Shown here: positions 1,173 to 24,174 of the stretch, in pieces | Position numbering within the stretch: position 1 is the first letter of the stretch | Layout: every line of letters starts with the position of its first letter | Virus record (IMG/VR): IMGVR_UViG_3300043436_001308 | Span: 1 to 29,007 of that record | Reading direction: 5' to 3' (one strand) | DNA: 29,007 nt | Source: a virus | Notes under the pieces: generated by a model | Seen by the model: the letters and a program-made list of their open reading frames with translations, nothing else | What the model was told of the DNA's origin: nothing | The model's database searches: none | Made by a program: the position numbers and the translations under genes

Positions 1173-1622
1173 TTAATTTGGAACTTGTTTAAGCGGTACG
1201 GCGCAGTCTGTCCAGTTGTTTACGGCGTAAGTTGCTGTCATTACCCAACCCGCTGCATAGTCTAGTAAGTCGTTGTTTAACGGCTCAAAAGTAGGGGTGT
1301 CTACTAGATCAAAAGAATAGTTATTCGAGTTTATGAAGTACGTGTAAAGGTCGTACAGAATTTGTTGGCAGTCGCTTAGAATTACGTTAATATTCGCGCG
1401 GTCTTTTTGAATAATGTCAAAGCAATAAATTTCTAGGACAAAGTCGTTCGTGTTTTCGGTGGCTAAAGCCGTCACGGGTACAATGTAAACAATAGGGTAT
1501 TTTTCGTCTTTGGTGGCGAAGTTAAACATTTGTTCTTTGAAGTCCGACCCTACCTTTTTTACTTGAATATGGTTGTCGTAAAACGTTGTTATTTCGTTTA
1601 TAAGTGCTTGGTAACTTGTCAT
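1173..1622 (-). CDS. Putative tail completion/terminator-like protein
   Basis: 149 residues, soluble, without signal peptide or membrane segment. The start ATG overlaps the tape-measure stop as ATGA, so the two are probably translationally coupled. The N-terminal helix (MTSYQALINEITTFYDNH) is followed by an alternating beta pattern (YPIVYIVPVTALATENTNDFVLEIYCFDI). That layout resembles small tail-terminator or completion proteins of siphophages, but no diagnostic motif is visible. Position between tape measure and fibre supports a tail role. The functional label is inference; virion association is more secure than the exact job. Confidence 0.55.
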   Translation of the reverse strand: MTSYQALINEITTFYDNHIQVKKVGSDFKEQMFNFATKDEKYPIVYIVPVTALATENTNDFVLEIYCFDIIQKDRANINVILSDCQQILYDLYTYFINSNNYSFDLVDTPTFEPLNNDLLDYAAGWVMTATYAVNNWTDCAVPLKQVPN

Positions 1623-3649
1623 AATTCAGAACCTTGTTTGATTTTATTTATTTTCGTTTGTGTGCTTGTTATGTCCGTTTCGCTTACAACCGCTTGCACT
1701 ACAAAACTAGGTGATGCACTTGCGCTTTTTGGTTGTCCTGCCGTGTTTAAGTTATTGCCTTGTCCGAACAAATTAATTTGCGGTACAATAGACGCAGCAC
1801 TTGACGAGCTAGCAGTATCATTACCACCGCCGCCACCTGCCGAAACTGAGCCGCTAGGGTTGCTTAATAGTTGCTTTGCCTTAGCTATGTTTGTGGTAAT
1901 TTGAATAATACCGCTAGCGAATTGCGCAATACCAGCCGCACCCGCCGAAACCCCGTTAAAAGGGTTTGATTGAGACGCAGCAACCAAAGCCGAAATGGCC
2001 TTAGCCGTGTCGATACCAATTTGAACTAGCGCGCTGGCCTTGTTAAATTGTTCTAGTTTCTTTTGGTCTTTAATAAAGGCATTGCCTAAAGCTCCTACGC
2101 CGTCTACTATGTCACCTGCTAGGGTTATTTTAGCGTCGCGTTCGGCCTTAGCCGCTTCGATTTTAGCCAAAGACGCGGCCTTTTCGTCGGCTACGACTTT
2201 GTCGTTTATTGCTTTAATTTCGGCGGCTCTTTTTTCTTCTAAGAATTTCGTGTCCGTTCCGTATTGCTCGGCTAAAGCTATTAACTCAAAGTAACGCGTT
2301 TGTATTTCGTCTTTTTGTCGTTCGGTTTCGCTCATGCGTAACACTCGCATTTGTTCTTCAAAGTCTTCTTGCGCTTGTAGCTGTACGTTTTCGTTGTCCC
2401 GAATAGCTTTGTTAATGTCAGCTTGTCGTTTTAAGTCGGCGTCTTTTTGTACTTGCGCTGCCTTGTCTAGTTCGGCTTGCTTTTGGTCGTTGTAAAGTTT
2501 GGTTAAACGTACCTTTTCCGCACCCGTTAAGTTTTCGTTTTTCTTTACGTCTTCGATTAGGCGTTTGTACTTTTCATTTGTGGCGGCTAGTTCGCGTTCG
2601 GTGTCGTCTGCAATCAAACCTATTTCTATGTCCTTAATAGTGCGCTCTGCGTCTAGTCGGTTCTTAGCGTAAGCCTTTGCGTTTTCCTTTCGTTTTTCCG
2701 CTGCGGCTTTGTCTTTTTCCGCTTGTTCGGCTGCGTCGTCTATTTCTAGCAATTGGCGCTCTTTACGTCCGTCGGCTAGTATTTTCTTTTCGGCGGCAAT
2801 TTGTTCGCGTAATTTCTTGCGCTTTTCTAGGTTGTCTTTAGATGCAATCTTTTGAAGTGCTGCGTATTCCTTTTGCGTGTCTTTTAAACGGCCCTCAGCT
2901 TCTTTGCTTATGGCTTTGGACTTGGCTATTTCCAGATCCGTTGTGTCTTTACCCGCGGCTTTTGCTTTGGCTATTTCTATGTCGTAAGAATCTGCAATCT
3001 TTTCGGCGCGTTTCTTAGAACTTGCGGCGGCCTTTTCGTTGGCCTTACCCATTTTTTCTGCGTTTTCTTCGGCGGCAAATTGTGTCAAACCTAGCCAGTC
3101 GGTCATTTCTTTAAACCCGTCAATAATTGCGTTAATGGGTATCATTAAAATATCTAATGCTTTTTGTAATACGCCAATTTTAGACAAGAAAACCACTATG
3201 GCAACCACTATTGCAGTAATAACTGCGACAAGTAAAAAGATAGGGTTAGCTAGTATTTGCATGCCTAGTTTAACGAAAGCCCCGCCAAGGGTTTTAATAG
3301 TTCCTGTAATGCCTTTAATTGCGCCCGAAATGTCCGCTTTACCAATCTTACCCAAGTTGCTAGCGAAGACCTGCGACTTTTGGCTAGCTTCTTCGAAGTC
3401 CAAAGACATTAAACTCGACTTAATGCCGTCAAATGAATTGCTAACTTGTTCGAATTTAGACCCCGAAGCAAAGACGTTTACTGCGTCGTTTGCGTCTTTA
3501 ATTCTGTCGGAAAGTTCACCCGCTTTTTTTGCGAGCATTTCCATTTGTGCGGGGTCAGTAGCCGCCGCTATTTCGGCTTTTAACTGCCTTAACTCGGCTT
3601 TCATTGAGCCGACACCCGTAAGCTTTAAAGGAATAGTAACTTCATTCAT
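1619..3649 (-). CDS. Tail tape-measure protein
   Basis: 676 residues. After a helical N-terminus (about 1-125) comes a strongly hydrophobic stretch at about 133-157 (NPIFLLVAVITAIVVAIVVF). A long Lys/Glu/Ala-rich coiled coil fills about 190-505. The Gly/Ala/Ser-rich C-terminal region includes ALVQIGIDTAKAISALVAA and a Gly run near 610. Hydrophobic segment plus long coiled coil is the classic tape-measure layout: these proteins fill the tail tube, set its length and enter or approach the host envelope at DNA ejection. By the usual rule of about 0.15 nm per residue the tail would be near 100 nm (inference). The start is supported by the TAATATAGTTATG motif. Unusually, two large tail proteins lie upstream of it. 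Confidence 0.88.
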   Translation of the reverse strand: MNEVTIPLKLTGVGSMKAELRQLKAEIAAATDPAQMEMLAKKAGELSDRIKDANDAVNVFASGSKFEQVSNSFDGIKSSLMSLDFEEASQKSQVFASNLGKIGKADISGAIKGITGTIKTLGGAFVKLGMQILANPIFLLVAVITAIVVAIVVFLSKIGVLQKALDILMIPINAIIDGFKEMTDWLGLTQFAAEENAEKMGKANEKAAASSKKRAEKIADSYDIEIAKAKAAGKDTTDLEIAKSKAISKEAEGRLKDTQKEYAALQKIASKDNLEKRKKLREQIAAEKKILADGRKERQLLEIDDAAEQAEKDKAAAEKRKENAKAYAKNRLDAERTIKDIEIGLIADDTERELAATNEKYKRLIEDVKKNENLTGAEKVRLTKLYNDQKQAELDKAAQVQKDADLKRQADINKAIRDNENVQLQAQEDFEEQMRVLRMSETERQKDEIQTRYFELIALAEQYGTDTKFLEEKRAAEIKAINDKVVADEKAASLAKIEAAKAERDAKITLAGDIVDGVGALGNAFIKDQKKLEQFNKASALVQIGIDTAKAISALVAASQSNPFNGVSAGAAGIAQFASGIIQITTNIAKAKQLLSNPSGSVSAGGGGGNDTASSSSAASIVPQINLFGQGNNLNTAGQPKSASASPSFVVQAVVSETDITSTQTKINKIKQGSEL

Positions 3650-14207: not shown

Positions 14208-14462
14208 TTAGTAACTATCGGAGTAATACTTTTGAACGCCGTCTATAAATAAATAACGTTCTTTGAGACCTCCCCTTTCGTCTTTAGCGTCGACGTAGAC
14301 TTTTTCTTTTGCGCGCCAACCTTCCGAATTTAAGCCCTCCGCGTTATGCTTCTTACTTAACTTAACTGCCAGTTTTAATGCTGCGCTTTTTGTTTTCCGT
14401 TTGTGCCATTGCAGTATGTCAGTACCGCCGTCAATGCTACAAACTTCAATTGAATAAACCAT
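14208..14462 (-). CDS. Unknown basic protein (84 aa)
   Basis: 84 residues from ATG 14462, rich in Lys and aromatic residues (MVYSIEVCSIDGGTDILQWH; AALKLAVKLSKKHNAEGLNS). An in-frame ATG at 14504 lies between two candidate -7 elements, so the downstream start is preferred, but a near-leaderless start at 14504 cannot be excluded. It is the first gene behind the promoter and repeats at 14492-14562. No family recognised. Confidence 0.6.
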   Translation of the reverse strand: MVYSIEVCSIDGGTDILQWHKRKTKSAALKLAVKLSKKHNAEGLNSEGWRAKEKVYVDAKDERGGLKERYLFIDGVQKYYSDSY

Positions 14463-15394: not shown

Positions 15395-16408
15395 TTAAAA
15401 AGTGTTTAAGTTGCGTAATTTTTGGCTTGTTGACATAATGCCGTCGGTTATTGTTTTTTGGCTTTCTTTTTTGTAGTACGTTCCCCTATTGGCGTAAACT
15501 CGTTTTCCTTTGTGGTCTAGCATGTAGTATTGGTATCGGTCTAAGTCTAAGAACATTTTGTAAGTTCCGTTTTTTGATACGCCTTTAGGCTTACTCTTAG
15601 CTACTTTCAAATGTACTTCGTTTTTTTCTGCGCCCGTTCCGTCGCTGTTTGTTAGCCCGTAAGGTGGTCGCCACGGAATTAACACGCTTAGACCCTTTCT
15701 AAACCATACTTGCCCACCCGCAAAGTCCCTAGCGCTAGGAATAGGGAAATAGCTTACGTCCGTTCCAGCAATTGTCTTAGCAGTTACCATAGGTTGGTCG
15801 CGAACGTGGTTAATTACGCAGTTGTGGCGGTTTGTTTTACGTGCGTTCTTACGAACTAGTCCTAGAATACGGCTCAAATACTTGTCTTCGCGTCCTAAGT
15901 CTGAGGCTATAAGTTCTTCGGTTAATTCGTTCCACGGGTCAATAGTGGTGGTATGTATTTTAATACCTTCTTTGCGTTCGATTTCGTCTACTAGGTCATA
16001 AAATTTCGTAATAGTTAGGTCTTCGTCTATGGGATCAATTACAATGAAATGCTGGTTAACAAACATTTCGGCGCTTATTTGTTCCCCGTTGGTCATTGAG
16101 TTTTGACCTTGAACGTAGGGCTTACCTATGTACTTGTAGCATAGTTCGGCAAATATTTCCGCACTACTTCCCGTTTCAGGACTAAATACAACGTGGTTCC
16201 AACCATGCAAACATGAAAGGTTTATAAGAAACTCAAACCATAGTTCCGTTTTTCCGCTTGCGGGCGCTGCGCCTATGTACGTCGTAGTTCCTTCTTTGAT
16301 TGTAAAGGGTAACATATCCCAATCCCAACCCACGGACTTACCCCTTACGTCTACTTTTTGACGAACGGCGAACATTTCGGCGTTTAAGTCTGTTAGTCTT
16401 TTGTACAT
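15395..16408 (-). CDS. RecA-fold replicative helicase/ATPase
   Basis: 337 residues from ATG 16408, three bases past the preceding stop. The Walker A motif is IGAAPASGKTEL (Lys53-Thr54) and Walker B is HTTTIDPWNEL (Asp156). Further RecA-fold features follow, including NCVINHVRDQP near 205-215 and the region GGQVWFRKGLSVLIPWRPP. It resembles DnaB/RAD55-like single-domain phage helicases without a primase domain. Together with the upstream organiser-like protein it probably opens the phage origin and drives fork movement. No primase or DNA polymerase gene is visible, so host enzymes would be needed. Confidence 0.83.
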   Translation of the reverse strand: MYKRLTDLNAEMFAVRQKVDVRGKSVGWDWDMLPFTIKEGTTTYIGAAPASGKTELWFEFLINLSCLHGWNHVVFSPETGSSAEIFAELCYKYIGKPYVQGQNSMTNGEQISAEMFVNQHFIVIDPIDEDLTITKFYDLVDEIERKEGIKIHTTTIDPWNELTEELIASDLGREDKYLSRILGLVRKNARKTNRHNCVINHVRDQPMVTAKTIAGTDVSYFPIPSARDFAGGQVWFRKGLSVLIPWRPPYGLTNSDGTGAEKNEVHLKVAKSKPKGVSKNGTYKMFLDLDRYQYYMLDHKGKRVYANRGTYYKKESQKTITDGIMSTSQKLRNLNTF

Positions 16409-16410
16409 TT

Positions 16411-17052
16411 TTAGCCCTCCCAAATTTCAGTTGGTAAATTTACTTTTGGTTTGTTACGTTCTTGAACATTTTTATTCCAACGTTTTAGCCTTAATTCTAA
16501 GTTGAAGCTACTTTGTTTTTCAAACCTCATCTTTTTGTCATGTTCGCCGTGTTCCGTCCAGTAGTCGTAAAATTCCCTAATCATTTCCTTACCATAAGTT
16601 TCTAAATAAAAGGCTAATGAATGAGCAAAAGACTTTTTGCGAATATCAAAAGTTGCGGGGTTTTTCTTATTATCTTTTTCTACTTCTTTATCTACTTCTT
16701 TAATGCTAGAGCCTTGCTTTAGCGACGCTTTAGCCTTGCTTAAGCCACCCTTACGCCCCGACTCACTGAGTTTCAAGCGTTTAGACTCGATTTCTTTTCG
16801 CTCTTTATCCAAAAACGAAATTACAATTTTATTTTTTTTCGTCTTTAAATAATTTTTTTCAATCAAAATTTCGACTATTGTAGCGTTCCTTAAGCGAAGC
16901 TTAGCCTCGTCAATGGATAGGTCGTTATTCCTATTCCAGTATTCCGCGCACACACTAATAAATGCGCCTTGTAACTCAAATGATTCATAGCTTATATTGC
17001 CCGTGATCCATTCAGTAGCGTTAAACTTAAAAAATGGCAGCTCTTTACTCAT
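16411..17052 (-). CDS. Replication organiser/helicase-loader-like protein
   Basis: 213 residues. The N-terminal domain begins LPFFKFNATEWITGNISYES and FELQGAFISVCAEYWNRNND, the pattern of winged-helix replication initiators (DUF1376/DnaD-like N-terminal domains). A basic, Ser-rich linker (about 85-125: SGRKGGLSKAKASLKQGSS) leads to a C-terminal helical part with MRFEKQSSFNLELRLKRW, a motif like that of helicase-loader proteins of Bacteroidota phages and prophages. It lies directly upstream of the helicase gene, as replisome organisers usually do. The role in origin binding or helicase loading is inferred from domain type and neighbours. Confidence 0.72.
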   Translation of the reverse strand: MSKELPFFKFNATEWITGNISYESFELQGAFISVCAEYWNRNNDLSIDEAKLRLRNATIVEILIEKNYLKTKKNKIVISFLDKERKEIESKRLKLSESGRKGGLSKAKASLKQGSSIKEVDKEVEKDNKKNPATFDIRKKSFAHSLAFYLETYGKEMIREFYDYWTEHGEHDKKMRFEKQSSFNLELRLKRWNKNVQERNKPKVNLPTEIWEG

Positions 17053-17218
17053 TGCTAAAACTTTCTAAAGTTTTTATTAATGTGTAGGCTTGCTTAATAT
17101 CAATGCAAACCGTTTTTGATTCTTGACCCTCGATAATTTCAAAGCAAATAAATTCACCTTTAGAAACAATCATTTGGTCTTTGTCATTAAATTGACATTT
17201 GAAATAAATTTCGTTCAT
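17045..17218 (-). CDS. Small unknown protein behind the structured RNA (57 aa)
   Basis: 57 residues (MNEIYFKCQFNDKDQMIVSK; CIDIKQAYTLIKTLESFSNE), acidic, predicted alpha/beta. It is the first gene downstream of the leader RNA and terminator at 17237-17326 and overlaps the replication organiser by 8 bases. If the terminator is regulated, this gene heads the controlled operon. It is too short to be a type III toxin. No family recognised. Confidence 0.65.
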   Translation of the reverse strand: MNEIYFKCQFNDKDQMIVSKGEFICFEIIEGQESKTVCIDIKQAYTLIKTLESFSNE

Positions 17219-17236: not shown

Positions 17237-17289
17237 AAAAAAACCCTCGCAAATCCGTAGGCTCTCACATCTACTTCATTACAAGGGTT
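17237..17289 (-). terminator. Terminator/attenuator of the structured RNA
   Basis: AACCCTTG (17289-17282) pairs with CGAGGGTT (17249-17242; one G-T pair), and a run of seven T starts inside the last two bases. The 32-base loop is unusually long and contains hairpin 2, so folding, and thus termination, may be conditional. Confidence 0.6.
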
Positions 17290-17326
17290 AATAATACCTT
17301 TAGGTTCTATGGTGTGAGAGCGAACC
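17237..17326 (-). ncRNA. Structured leader or small RNA with complementary hairpin loops
   Basis: About 90 nt between a promoter element and a U-tract, with no credible ORF. Hairpin 1 pairs GGUUC (17326-17322) with GAACC (17307-17303). Hairpin 2 pairs GUAG (17274-17271) with CUAC (17260-17257). The loop of hairpin 1 holds GCUCUCACA (17321-17313), perfectly complementary to UGUGAGAGC (17269-17261), which is nearly the whole loop of hairpin 2. This gives a 9-bp kissing or pseudoknot interaction. The terminator stem (AACCCUUG/CGAGGGUU) encloses hairpin 2 and so interleaves with the kissing pair. It may be a free-standing RNA, an attenuator of the replication operon, or a self-dimerising antisense-type regulator. 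Expression is inferred from promoter and terminator only. Confidence 0.62.
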
Positions 17327-17331
17327 ATGTA

Positions 17332-17339
17332 CAAATATA
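17332..17339 (-). promoter_or_regulatory. Promoter -7 element TATATTTG for the structured RNA/replication block
   Basis: Perfect TAnnTTTG element whose expected transcription start falls at the first bases (GGUUC) of hairpin 1. The -33 region (CAAC at 19 bases) is poor and overlaps the end of the DnaA-like gene. Confidence 0.6.
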
Positions 17340-17344
17340 ACGCT

Positions 17345-17776
17345 TTAACTCGAAATAAGTTGCTCGTCTTCTAAAATTTCTTCGTAAAAACCCATTTTTA
17401 CCCGTCTTTGAATACGTTTAAAGGACACCATGTTATTGGCTTTGAGTATGTCCGTCTTTATGTCGTAGTCTTTTTTCGTCCTAAATATCTTAGAAATGTT
17501 TGGTAGTTCGGAGCCGTCTAAGTAGGCTTGAAGCGCGCACGTTTCGGCTATGTAGTCAGCATCTCGGTAACTAATTAAGTCTTTGTGTATACGTAACCCG
17601 TGTAAAATTGTAGCGTGGTTCTTGTCAAAGTAACGGCCTATGTCCGAAAGGCTCAGCCCGCAAATTCTTAACTCGTTGTAAAGGTAATAACGCTTGTAAA
17701 GTACGTCGCGACGTCTAGACTTGTTAAGTAGTCCGTATTTTTCGATGAGTTCGTTTATTAATGCTAATCTGTTCAT
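17345..17776 (-). CDS. Stand-alone DnaA domain-IV-like DNA-binding protein
   Basis: 143 residues. Residues about 22-66 (RRDVLYKRYYLYNELRICGL, then SLSDIGRYFDKNHATILHG) match the C-terminal DNA-binding domain of DnaA, including the signature IGR-F-x-x-(D/N)H-(A/T)-T-(I/V)-x-H that reads DnaA boxes. The AAA+ ATPase part is absent. The remaining 75 residues are basic and not recognised. It may mark the phage origin, compete with host DnaA or regulate promoters. It ends just before the promoter of the structured RNA and replication genes. It overlaps the upstream small gene by 4 bases. Confidence 0.75.
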   Translation of the reverse strand: MNRLALINELIEKYGLLNKSRRRDVLYKRYYLYNELRICGLSLSDIGRYFDKNHATILHGLRIHKDLISYRDADYIAETCALQAYLDGSELPNISKIFRTKKDYDIKTDILKANNMVSFKRIQRRVKMGFYEEILEDEQLISS

Positions 17777-19403: not shown

Positions 19404-19434
19404 CAAATATAAAACAAAAAAGCCAACCCCGAAA
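19404..19434 (-). promoter_or_regulatory. Promoter of the short intergenic RNA
   Basis: TTTC (19434-19431), 19 bases, TATATTTG (19411-19404). The -33 lies in the loop of the late-operon terminator, so terminator and promoter are interleaved. Confidence 0.55.
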
Positions 19435-21952: not shown

Positions 21953-22509
21953 TAGAATACCATTATAGCGTTGTTATACCCGTTGTCATTGTAACGCTGG
22001 CCGCAACGTCCCCAGCATGTACCTACGCAGTCGCACGCGTCAATCTGTGGGCGTAAGTCCGTGTCTTTATTTGTTTGGCTAGTGAATTGCGGGTACAAAT
22101 TTTTGTTAGCTAGCAGGTATCTAATTAAACGTTGTTCGTAGAAGCTGGCTTTTTGTGCGTAATGCTCCATTGAAAAGGCAACCTCAGCACGTGAAACGCT
22201 GCCCGAATAGTCGCCAAATTGCGTTTGAATACCTTTGTTTTTAAGTTGGTAAGAAAGCCCAAAAACAGCATCTTCAGCACTACGCCAAGCCACAACGGGT
22301 TGAATAAATTCTACTAGCGTCTCTTCGTCGTTTGTCAAAGTCTGCGTATTGTACGCGTTTAACATGTACTTATAAAACGTTGTACCTAGAATTGGTTGTA
22401 CTCTTAAGTCCGACTGCGTAGCAATGTATGGTGTTACGTCTGTTACGTCTACGTTTGCCGTAATAGGCGTGTTCGTCTTTAGGTAGGTTTCAGTTATGAA
22501 GTAAATCAT
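21952..22509 (-). CDS. Head-tail connector/adaptor candidate with cysteine-rich C-terminus
   Basis: 185 residues, helical. N-terminal TETYLKTNTPITANVDVTDV TPYIATQSDLRVQPILG resembles the connector-like structural proteins (DUF6712-type) that follow the portal in Bacteroidota phages. The C-terminus has a compact cluster CDCVGTCWGRCG (four or five Cys in 12 residues), possibly binding metal or forming disulphides. The start overlaps the portal stop as ATGA. A head-tail joining role is inferred from position. Confidence 0.65.
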   Translation of the reverse strand: MIYFITETYLKTNTPITANVDVTDVTPYIATQSDLRVQPILGTTFYKYMLNAYNTQTLTNDEETLVEFIQPVVAWRSAEDAVFGLSYQLKNKGIQTQFGDYSGSVSRAEVAFSMEHYAQKASFYEQRLIRYLLANKNLYPQFTSQTNKDTDLRPQIDACDCVGTCWGRCGQRYNDNGYNNAIMVF

Positions 22510-23819
22510 TTCTTAAATGTTTGGGCGGGTTGTTGTGAAGCTACTATGTCGCCACCTTCAACGGGTGGTAAGCTTGCAAGTGCGCGGATTTCGTTAGGTG
22601 TCATTGTGTCCAAAACTTTAGTAGCTACAAGCGGGCTCATTGCGTTAAGTGCATCTTGTGTTTTACTAGCGTCGCCTTCTACTTCTACAATTGTTTCGTT
22701 AATTATTTGGAAATTCTTAATTGTAAAGTCAGCTTTGAGCCTAGAAATGTTTAATAGTTCCGTGAATATTTCGGTAACCATTTCGCGCAACGGAATAACT
22801 ACGTTTTTTTCAAAGATTACGTAACCTTGTTTAATGTCAGCGCCACCGCCTAAACTACCCGTTGTGCGCACACCCATTAAAATAGGGTCGATTGTATGGG
22901 CAAAACAAATTTGCTCGGTGTTAAGCGTGCTAGCTTCTTGAAAAAGTTTGTCATTTTGGTTGGTTGGTATACTTTCAATTTTAGGTAGTTGGTCGGCTGA
23001 GTTTGCAAAGAAGGCCACACCTTTACCAGCGTTTGCCGCGCCTTTCATTCGGTCGATTGTGTCACGTAATACTTTCTTTTCTTCTTCGCTTTGCGGTCTC
23101 TTAGGAAACATCATTGCGAAAGCTGGGAAAATACTATTTTGAATGTTCGACTTTGCGAAGTACGAAAGTTCACCCGACAAAAAGGCGAAGTTTAAAGCAC
23201 TTGAATACTGCGGTAATGAGTAATAATCTTGTCCAATGCTAGGTAATTCGTAGCTATAAAGCTGGCATCTGTCCGTGTTAAGCGGGTGGTATGGTTTTAC
23301 TTGTTCTACGTCAATACGGCTAGCCCAGTCGTCGCACAAATAGTAACAAGTTTTAGTGTTGTTTATACGGACTTTTTCAGGGCTTACGTTTTCTATTCTG
23401 TGTAGCTTGTTTTTGTCGTCAAAATGCAACTTAAAGTAGACGCGGTTGTGCATTACTAGTTGTTTTGTAACGGCTTTAACCGACTTGGCTAGGCGCATTT
23501 TCTTTTCCCAAGTGTAAATGTCTAGGAGTTCTTGCGGTGTAAGCTTGTCCGTTTTTAGTTCGTAACCCGCGCCAATAGCTGCGTTTACTTTAAAGTCTAC
23601 AATAGCCCCATGTAAAGGCGACGTGTAATAAAGTTGGTTTAAAGTTTCGGGAAATAGGTTGTCTGATCCAAAAGGCACATAGCCTGCCACCTGGTAACGT
23701 CCATTAACGTAAGGAAGCGACAAGTCACCGCGTCCGATTTTACCGAAAGGCGTACTAAAAGACTGATAGCCTTCTATTACTTCGGGTTTTTGTTGTTTGA
23801 ATCTATCGAAAATTCCCAT
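22506..23819 (-). CDS. Portal protein
   Basis: 437 residues from ATG 23819, where MGIFDRFKQQKPE begins; upstream frame sequence is inside the preceding gene. The chain shows the portal pattern: LYYTSPLHGAIVDFKVNAAI near 77-96, NRVYFKLHFDDKNKLHRIEN near 139-158, the long stem helix region, and ICFAHTIDPILMGVRTTGSL near 320-340 before IFEKNVVIPLREMVTEIFTE. Portals form the dodecameric ring through which terminase pumps DNA. The gene lies downstream of capsid and tail-tube genes instead of next to the terminase, which is unusual. It is followed by a connector-like gene. Confidence 0.85.
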   Translation of the reverse strand: MGIFDRFKQQKPEVIEGYQSFSTPFGKIGRGDLSLPYVNGRYQVAGYVPFGSDNLFPETLNQLYYTSPLHGAIVDFKVNAAIGAGYELKTDKLTPQELLDIYTWEKKMRLAKSVKAVTKQLVMHNRVYFKLHFDDKNKLHRIENVSPEKVRINNTKTCYYLCDDWASRIDVEQVKPYHPLNTDRCQLYSYELPSIGQDYYSLPQYSSALNFAFLSGELSYFAKSNIQNSIFPAFAMMFPKRPQSEEEKKVLRDTIDRMKGAANAGKGVAFFANSADQLPKIESIPTNQNDKLFQEASTLNTEQICFAHTIDPILMGVRTTGSLGGGADIKQGYVIFEKNVVIPLREMVTEIFTELLNISRLKADFTIKNFQIINETIVEVEGDASKTQDALNAMSPLVATKVLDTMTPNEIRALASLPPVEGGDIVASQQPAQTFKK

Positions 23820-23823
23820 TTTA

Positions 23824-24174
23824 TTAGTCGTATATGCTAGAAATAGAACCGCCCGCAACAACTAAGCGCCCTTCTTCTATTAAATTAAGTCCGTTTGTAT
23901 TCGTGTTTTCGTCTACTATTATTTCTTCGTCGCTTTCGTAAACTGAGTACGTGTATTGACCGCGCGTTAGTTCGAGGTCTACACCTTCTTCTAAAGTGAA
24001 AAGGTTGTATCTAGTCGGAAAGTTTGACGTGTCAACACCCGACCACAAAACGGGTTCGGTTGCCGTGTTAAATTCGCCCTCAAAGACGAATAAATAAAAA
24101 GGGTCTACTAACGTCGTTACTTCGCTTAAAGTAAGTGCAAACGTGTTTATTTCGCCTTTTTCAATGTAAATCAT
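23824..24174 (-). CDS. Small structural protein of unknown role (116 aa)
   Basis: 116 residues from ATG 24174, fixed by the TAATATTGTTATG motif; an in-frame ATG at 24207 lies upstream and is less likely. The sequence is beta-rich and acidic (MIYIEKGEINTFALTLSEVT; PFYLFVFEGEFNT; YTYSVYESDEEIIVDE). A pattern of this kind occurs in small virion-region genes of Bacteroidota phages; Ig-like or decoration folds are possible. It lies between tail-tube and portal genes. Confidence 0.6.
   Translation of the reverse strand: MIYIEKGEINTFALTLSEVTTLVDPFYLFVFEGEFNTATEPVLWSGVDTSNFPTRYNLFTLEEGVDLELTRGQYTYSVYESDEEIIVDENTNTNGLNLIEEGRLVVAGGSISSIYD

Follow-up and report, generated by a model that had tools for sequence, protein, structure and literature searches.

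Between a gene for a DnaA-like protein and the replication genes of the window (the whole 29,007-base virus record analyzed here, which has a tailed-phage layout), a putative promoter is followed within a short distance by a strong putative terminator, and this arrangement raises the question of how the genes beyond it come to be read. Our analysis points to a leader RNA, about 90 letters long, with a first hairpin, P1, whose loop pairs with that of the terminator hairpin; natural selection has maintained this RNA, as judged from the covariation described below. This RNA is probably a switch deciding whether the replication genes are read.

All the features of the locus lie on the minus strand. 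The upstream gene (17345-17776) carries a DnaA C-terminal (domain IV) helix-turn-helix (PF08299, E 1.5e-6; at 28.5 bits the match is slightly below the 31.5 cut-off), and it gave tblastn matches to annotated phage DnaA-like genes. On the other side of the element, a gene for a 57-aa protein of no known family (17045-17218), whose ATG at 17218 stands 24 nt past the terminator stem, opens the replication/recombination module. It is followed by a conserved replication-module gene for a 213-aa protein (16411-17052), whose relatives in cultured Bacteroidota phages adjoin DnaC-like, primase or replicative helicase genes, and by the gene for a 342-aa, DnaB/primase-helicase-like ATPase (15395-16423; phrog_239, DNA primase/helicase, E 8.5e-13). 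The window also encodes a portal protein (22506-23861), a tape-measure-like protein (1619-3649), an ERF recombinase and NinG. In the loci collected, a DnaA-like gene is often found upstream of the element, and the genes for the 213-aa protein, the ATPase, NinG and ERF follow downstream in a single direction.

Along the minus strand the order is promoter box, P1, linker, terminator arm, P2, terminator arm and seven U, the promoter and terminator assignments being consensus and folding predictions. The putative -7 element, TATATTTG (17332-17339), fits TAnnTTTG, the published Bacteroidota -7 consensus, which was confirmed in Flavobacterium johnsoniae (PMC7366714). Hairpin P1 (17303-17326; GGUUC at 17326-17322 paired with GAACC at 17307-17303) is supported by folding and covariation and would form the 5' end of the transcript; a spacing of 5 nt between box and P1 in 79 of 99 homologues fits a predicted start at the foot of this hairpin. 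The P1 loop contains the first pseudoknot strand, GCUCUCACA (17313-17321), the complement of 17269-17261. A linker, UAAAGGUAUUAUU (17290-17302), which in its first part shows weak complementarity to the 5' arm of the terminator and might form an antiterminator helix with it, leads into the terminator stem P3 (17242-17289, arms 17289-17279 and 17252-17242), identified by folding and covariation. Inside P3, at the tip of the terminator, covariation identifies the hairpin P2 (17257-17274; GUAG at 17274-17271 paired with CUAC at 17260-17257), the loop of which presents the second pseudoknot strand, UGUGAGAGC (17261-17269), supported by a re-pairing test and covariation. A tract of 7 U (17237-17243) completes the putative intrinsic terminator. 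The minus strand of the window has five more TATATTTG boxes that appear to be intergenic, at 19411, 19035, 14522, 14499 and 11195; they are likely to be further phage promoters, and the generic scan described below placed a kissing-loop terminator behind none of them.

In the minimum-energy fold of the minus strand (-26.3 kcal/mol, z = -2.7), exactly P1, P3 and P2 form, and the P1 and P2 loops, which stay open, are perfectly complementary over 9 nt. The terminator hairpin folded alone gives -17.6 kcal/mol, and an 8-bp pseudoknot duplex would contribute about -12.6 kcal/mol with the loop penalty not yet counted. A structure on the plus strand was rejected, as the U-tract and the neighboring genes are on the minus strand. 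An earlier note on this DNA had described a promoter box, two hairpins, a 9-nt loop match, an enclosing terminator and a U-tract, all of which we found on this strand; the interleaved 1-2-1'-2' order that it proposed is borne out as well, since P3 encloses P2 and the P1 loop pairs with the P2 loop.

A blastn search of the region against annotated phages gave a 76% match to an unannotated gap of Tenacibaculum phage Gundel_1, exactly over the element. Using loci found via the 213-aa neighbor protein and via the loop pattern, we built an alignment of 43 distinct sequences, and a covariance model made without the pseudoknot served to gather and align at least 99 distinct homologues, so that the pairs of the pseudoknot had no influence on the fit. 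The compensatory changes on which the earlier note had made its structure depend are abundant in these alignments. Covariation was detected in all four helices with the 43 sequences and again with the 99 homologues, the loop-loop pseudoknot among them. In the larger set, standard pairs occupied 94.5% of the cells and both sides had changed in 693 cells vs. 181 in shuffles, counts that are not independent events since the homologues are related (model E-values are likewise rough). The covariation score was 0.737 vs. 0.214 in shuffled alignments, and it fell below 0.1 when the structure was slid by 1-3 columns. Double-sided compensatory changes were found at 5/5 pairs of P1 (99.8% of cells paired), 4/4 pairs of P2 (98.2%), 8/11 pairs of P3 and 7/8 tested pairs of the pseudoknot (94.2%), whose last two pairs, A-U and C-G, are nearly constant.

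The loops are specific for each other. With homologues clustered at 80%, the longest helix between loop 1 and loop 2 averaged 8.0 bp, vs. 3.9 bp after re-pairing the loops between homologues. The pseudoknot, 6-9 bp in length, is hypervariable with compensatory changes, as the matched pairs GCUCUCAC/GUGAGAGC (window), GGCUCGAC/GUCGAGCC, CAUCCGAC/GUCGGAUG, GGCUUCAC/GUGAAGCC and CAUCCUAC/GUAGGAUG illustrate. All homologues have a linker of 13-17 nt, and nearly all have a U-tract 3' of the stem; in Gundel_1 it is interrupted (UUUCUUG). These results disfavor the idea that the complementary 8-9 mers are two sites of a DNA-binding protein, which we regard as extremely improbable: a pair of inverted repeats separated by about 60 bp and close to a promoter would suit it, but the repeats stay complementary as their sequence varies freely, the further stems nested around them show RNA-like covariation with G-U pairs, and a U-tract lies behind them.

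The distribution of the element was examined with a generic scan, which looked for a TAnnTTTG box followed by a k-mer and a U-tract terminator, the apical loop of the terminator being the complement of that k-mer. In the 29-kb window it returned the element, as a 9-mer, and one 6-mer coincidence only. It yielded 190 matches in 1.74 Mb of related phage DNA vs. 2 in the reversed control, and 1 match in 612 kb of mostly bacterial loci, all of these being lower bounds, as the Gundel_1 copy was missed because of its interrupted U-tract; the numbers of homologues and loci in our collection are also lower bounds. Among loci found via the neighboring replication protein, the scan located the architecture at most 1.3 kb upstream of a replication gene in 64 of 74. 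The model search of 37 whole phage records (18-43 kb), which were selected as element carriers and hence give copy number and not prevalence, found a match in every one, nearly always one strong match; G432, G434 and G436 had only weak matches, divergent or of the class 2 type discussed below, and G414 and G419 had a second, weak match besides the first. As for bacteria, the element was present in 1 of 397 genomes of one family and in one further copy in a single-cell Vicingaceae assembly, and there was no true case of a host gene with the element among 395 genomes of the phylum, where the sole match (L604) was rejected because it is a terminator next to a tRNA and has no pairing between loops. 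Judging from these searches, the element belongs mainly to phages. Its cultured carriers are Tenacibaculum phage Gundel_1, Flavobacterium phage morran9-1 and Cellulophaga phage phi13:2, the last with loops CUCUCACAA/UUGUGAGAG and a different sequence in the rest; the cultured phages 11b, Arctus_1, Nekkels_1 and phi19:1 gave no scan match in the stretches examined.

Several individual loci are worth pointing out. The gene that follows the Gundel_1 copy (L002, 8001-8115) encodes an antirepressor and not a replication protein. Two elements with differing loops precede different genes in L463 (1764+ and 5509+), L415 (954+ and 2828+) and L450 (10081- and 8458-), and the same holds for L099, L135, L171 and L044. 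In morran9-1 (L327), a strong match to the DUF805b RNA of Rfam (RF02914; 12838-12872, plus strand; 52.1 bits, cut-off 35.6) precedes a phage gene by about 20 nt and the kissing-loop element by 1.3 kb. A short hairpin-like AGGU...ACCU stretch lies between terminator and ATG in both L327 (about 14295-14330) and L450 (near 8370); its presence in two different phages suggests an extra layer at the start site.

The surroundings of the element give clues to what it does. By consensus-based prediction, an intrinsic terminator lies between the promoter and a first gene that depends on read-through. On the coding strand, the TAnnTTTG boxes that come after 17339 and before about 14.5 kb (15615, 15203 and 14916) are all within ORFs, so that the first replication genes apparently need read-through, either from the 17339 promoter or from one farther upstream. 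As a strong terminator separates promoter and genes with no other intergenic promoter visible, passage must be conditional. The distance from stem to ATG is nearly fixed (median 25 nt, IQR 23-26, in 132 distinct elements), and the first gene after the element is highly diverse, with dozens of start peptides (MAKDKKGF, MSKELPFF, MNEIYFKC and the EIWKD- proteins are examples). One such gene, MAKDKK..., occurs behind nine different pseudoknot sequences, which implies that the pseudoknot sequence depends on its partner strand and is independent of the gene. A trans target of these loops inside phages with the window's class of element (class 1) was rejected: pseudoknot 7-mers were not enriched elsewhere in the phages (83 vs. 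82) nor at other start sites (23 vs. 18.6), and the loop 7-mers have no additional copy in the window. A pseudoknot that varies freely, has no second target in the phage and is unlinked to the downstream gene points to an intramolecular function in cis.

We therefore favor a cis-acting transcription attenuator of the replication/recombination operon, working by loop-loop contact, and give this reading a probability of roughly 0.55. The earlier note had offered three readings, a kissing-loop attenuator, a pseudoknotted sensor and a dimerizing copy-control RNA. Covariation has established the kissing loop, or pseudoknot, and the attenuator is the best supported of the three given the later boxes inside ORFs, the near-fixed ATG spacing and the variable pseudoknot with no second target; dimerization has found neither direct support nor contradiction.

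Under the attenuator reading, the polymerase would start near 17327 and make P1, the linker, the terminator 5' arm and P2, and the P1 and P2 loops would kiss before the terminator 3' arm emerges; that the kissing strands are complete by then gives the order needed for a decision. If kissing is held, the terminator stem of 11-12 bp would be completed late and the polymerase would enter the replication genes; if it is not, the terminator would form and an RNA of about 90 nt would be released, the balance being set by some factor or condition. This direction, with kissing leading to read-through, is the least certain step, and we rate it somewhat short of an even chance. By rough geometry, kissing need not oppose termination, as a linker of 13-17 nt is long enough for pseudoknot and full stem to exist together. 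For an alternative helix formed by the linker and the 5' arm of the terminator, a general test over the homologues gave no support, and a narrower test chosen afterwards gave weak support (p about 0.01 or less) to an AAGG/CCUU type of it.

Weak model matches led to a second class of elements, with the same architecture and the same genomic position but unrelated sequence. Class 2 is composed of a short P1 with a loop of 6-7 nt, a linker containing AAAACAUU, a terminator tip hairpin with the complement of loop 1, and a U-tract. In L007, L016, L046 and L047 it precedes the same replication gene as in the phage of the window, the 213-aa proteins being 76-93% identical to that of the window over the matched stretch (81% for L007). 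Ten class 2 elements contain a third copy of loop 1 (L007:4894+, L016:3665+, L046:4892+, L047:4177+, L397, L401, L407, L473, L572 and L585): in all 10 members with an xxxCAG loop (GUGCAG, AGGCAG or GAGCAG), the loop-1 hexamer is repeated a few bases from the downstream ATG. Such a copy before the ATG is found in 10 of the 19 class 2 elements, vs. 2.0 by permutation. By eye it is also present in the weak match L105 (GGUACAG) and absent from L132 (GAGCAG), and class 1, the window included, does not have it. In class 2, a free loop 2 would also mask the ribosome site through the loop-1 copy at the start codon, while a loop 2 held by loop 1 would leave that copy free, so that kissing would mean ON for both transcription and translation. 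Still other versions of the architecture occur in L079, L081, L077, L095 and L463.

The comparison of the two classes bears on the strongest rival, a leader that senses a protein or a ligand, in which the pseudoknot would be the scaffold and the conserved single-stranded bases the binding site. Such a leader could be a riboswitch, or it could be recognized by RNA polymerase or an antitermination factor, as are the put RNAs of phage HK022. The unpaired bases of class 1 (ACA..AUA, AAAGGAAUUAUU, AAUGAA/GGAUUU) are well conserved and several are near-invariant, and the near constancy of the last two pseudoknot pairs also agrees with this proposal. These bases, however, differ in class 2 at the same genomic position, and no ligand pocket is common to both classes. 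We consider a sensing leader a real but minority possibility, with odds of about three to one against it.

Conserved unpaired bases also speak for a stand-alone, fully terminated small RNA of about 90 nt whose trans targets would be RNAs or proteins of the host, with the downstream genes served otherwise. The unit does begin exactly at a predicted start and end at a strong terminator, and P1 at the 5' end together with the terminator at the 3' end would make the RNA stable. Yet the fixed ATG spacing would be needless for such an RNA, its most obvious seed regions, the loops, vary freely, the boxes ahead of the next genes lie inside ORFs, and the unpaired bases of class 1 are not kept in class 2. 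We hold this explanation to be unlikely.

Less likely still is a copy-control or immunity RNA. Once released, it would pair with a second transcript from the same phage, at loop 2 or in the leader, and its accumulation would reduce replication-gene expression; the loops would then have diversified to escape cross-talk, as in plasmid incompatibility. The wide loop diversity (31 types in class 1), the different loops in 6/6 two-element loci and the loop-1 copy at the start codon of the 10/10 xxxCAG members of class 2, which could pair with loop 2 of another molecule, speak in its favor. Nevertheless, class 1 has no such target in the leader or elsewhere in the phage, and both complementary strands reside in one molecule, where they would be satisfied internally first.

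Returning to the attenuator, we propose with little confidence two further ideas taken together: that the loop sequence is a free 'address' matching the RNA of each phage to itself, in a Bacteroidota phage switch defined by its architecture, and that this architecture was reinvented, or diversified past sequence recognition, into at least two classes and several singletons. If so, the onset of replication would be coupled to the level of the phage's own RNA, and cross-talk between co-infecting phages would be avoided. More generally, the element represents an uncatalogued RNA family with unusually clear covariation, at the putative replication switch of many Bacteroidota phages, a group in which regulatory RNA is hardly known. 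The dozens of matched loop pairs constitute a natural set for studying how loop-loop contact at the tip of a terminator alters termination, the cultured carriers phi13:2, morran9-1 and Gundel_1 make the element open to direct testing, and the hypervariable loops are possible orthogonal parts for synthetic attenuators.

With regard to known systems, the earlier note had recognized no riboswitch or ribozyme in this stretch, and a search of Rfam release 15 (4227 families) agrees: the window had no match at gathering score, the best hit reaching 15.5 bits vs. a cut-off of 40, and ten class 2 or otherwise divergent loci had no match at the element. The literature on flavophage leader RNAs and loop-loop terminators that we consulted contained no description of it. 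The c4 antisense RNA of phages P1 and P4 is encoded in a leader and has hairpins, and it pairs with a target and not with itself; the element resembles it as a phage leader RNA with hairpins, in the class 2 complement beside the start codon and in the antirepressor gene of Gundel_1, but no target of the class 1 element was found in the phage. The put RNAs of HK022 form a two-hairpin phage leader by an early promoter that governs read-through; the put sites are not known to include a terminator or to engage in loop-loop pairing, both of which are predicted for the otherwise similar two-hairpin element. Type III toxin-antitoxin RNAs such as ToxI comprise a promoter, a pseudoknotted RNA in tandem repeats, a terminator and an ORF. 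The element has the same succession of parts, but it is a single unit, its downstream genes are diverse, and the first downstream gene of the window gave no toxin match, which sets it apart from type III antitoxins.

The closest likeness is to kissing-loop riboswitches. In the guanidine-IV riboswitch, a kissing loop between P1 and P2 competes with the elongation of P2 into the terminator and favors read-through (PMC11611296). Both are 5' leaders with two kissing hairpins, the second of which is the upper part of an intrinsic terminator, and compared with the published description, covariation supports the same architecture here, the P1 loop kissing the loop of a P2 that extends into the terminator. 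The pseudoknot of the element, in contrast, is hypervariable, no ligand pocket is shared, and the hosts, the genes and the sequence bear no relation to those of guanidine-IV; the element has no Rfam match by sequence and structure, the level at which the two were set apart. The ZTP, fluoride and preQ1 riboswitches form a kissing loop or pseudoknot on ligand binding (PMC11611296). As in these, a pseudoknot near the terminator region would take part in the switch. Their binding pockets are conserved in sequence, whereas the paired strands of the element are not. In its functional kind the element is a structured leader with a terminator, as are the kissing-loop riboswitches; as a family it is new, distinguished by loops that are hypervariable but strictly matched, by its distribution in phages, and by its recurrence as sequence-unrelated classes at one genomic position.
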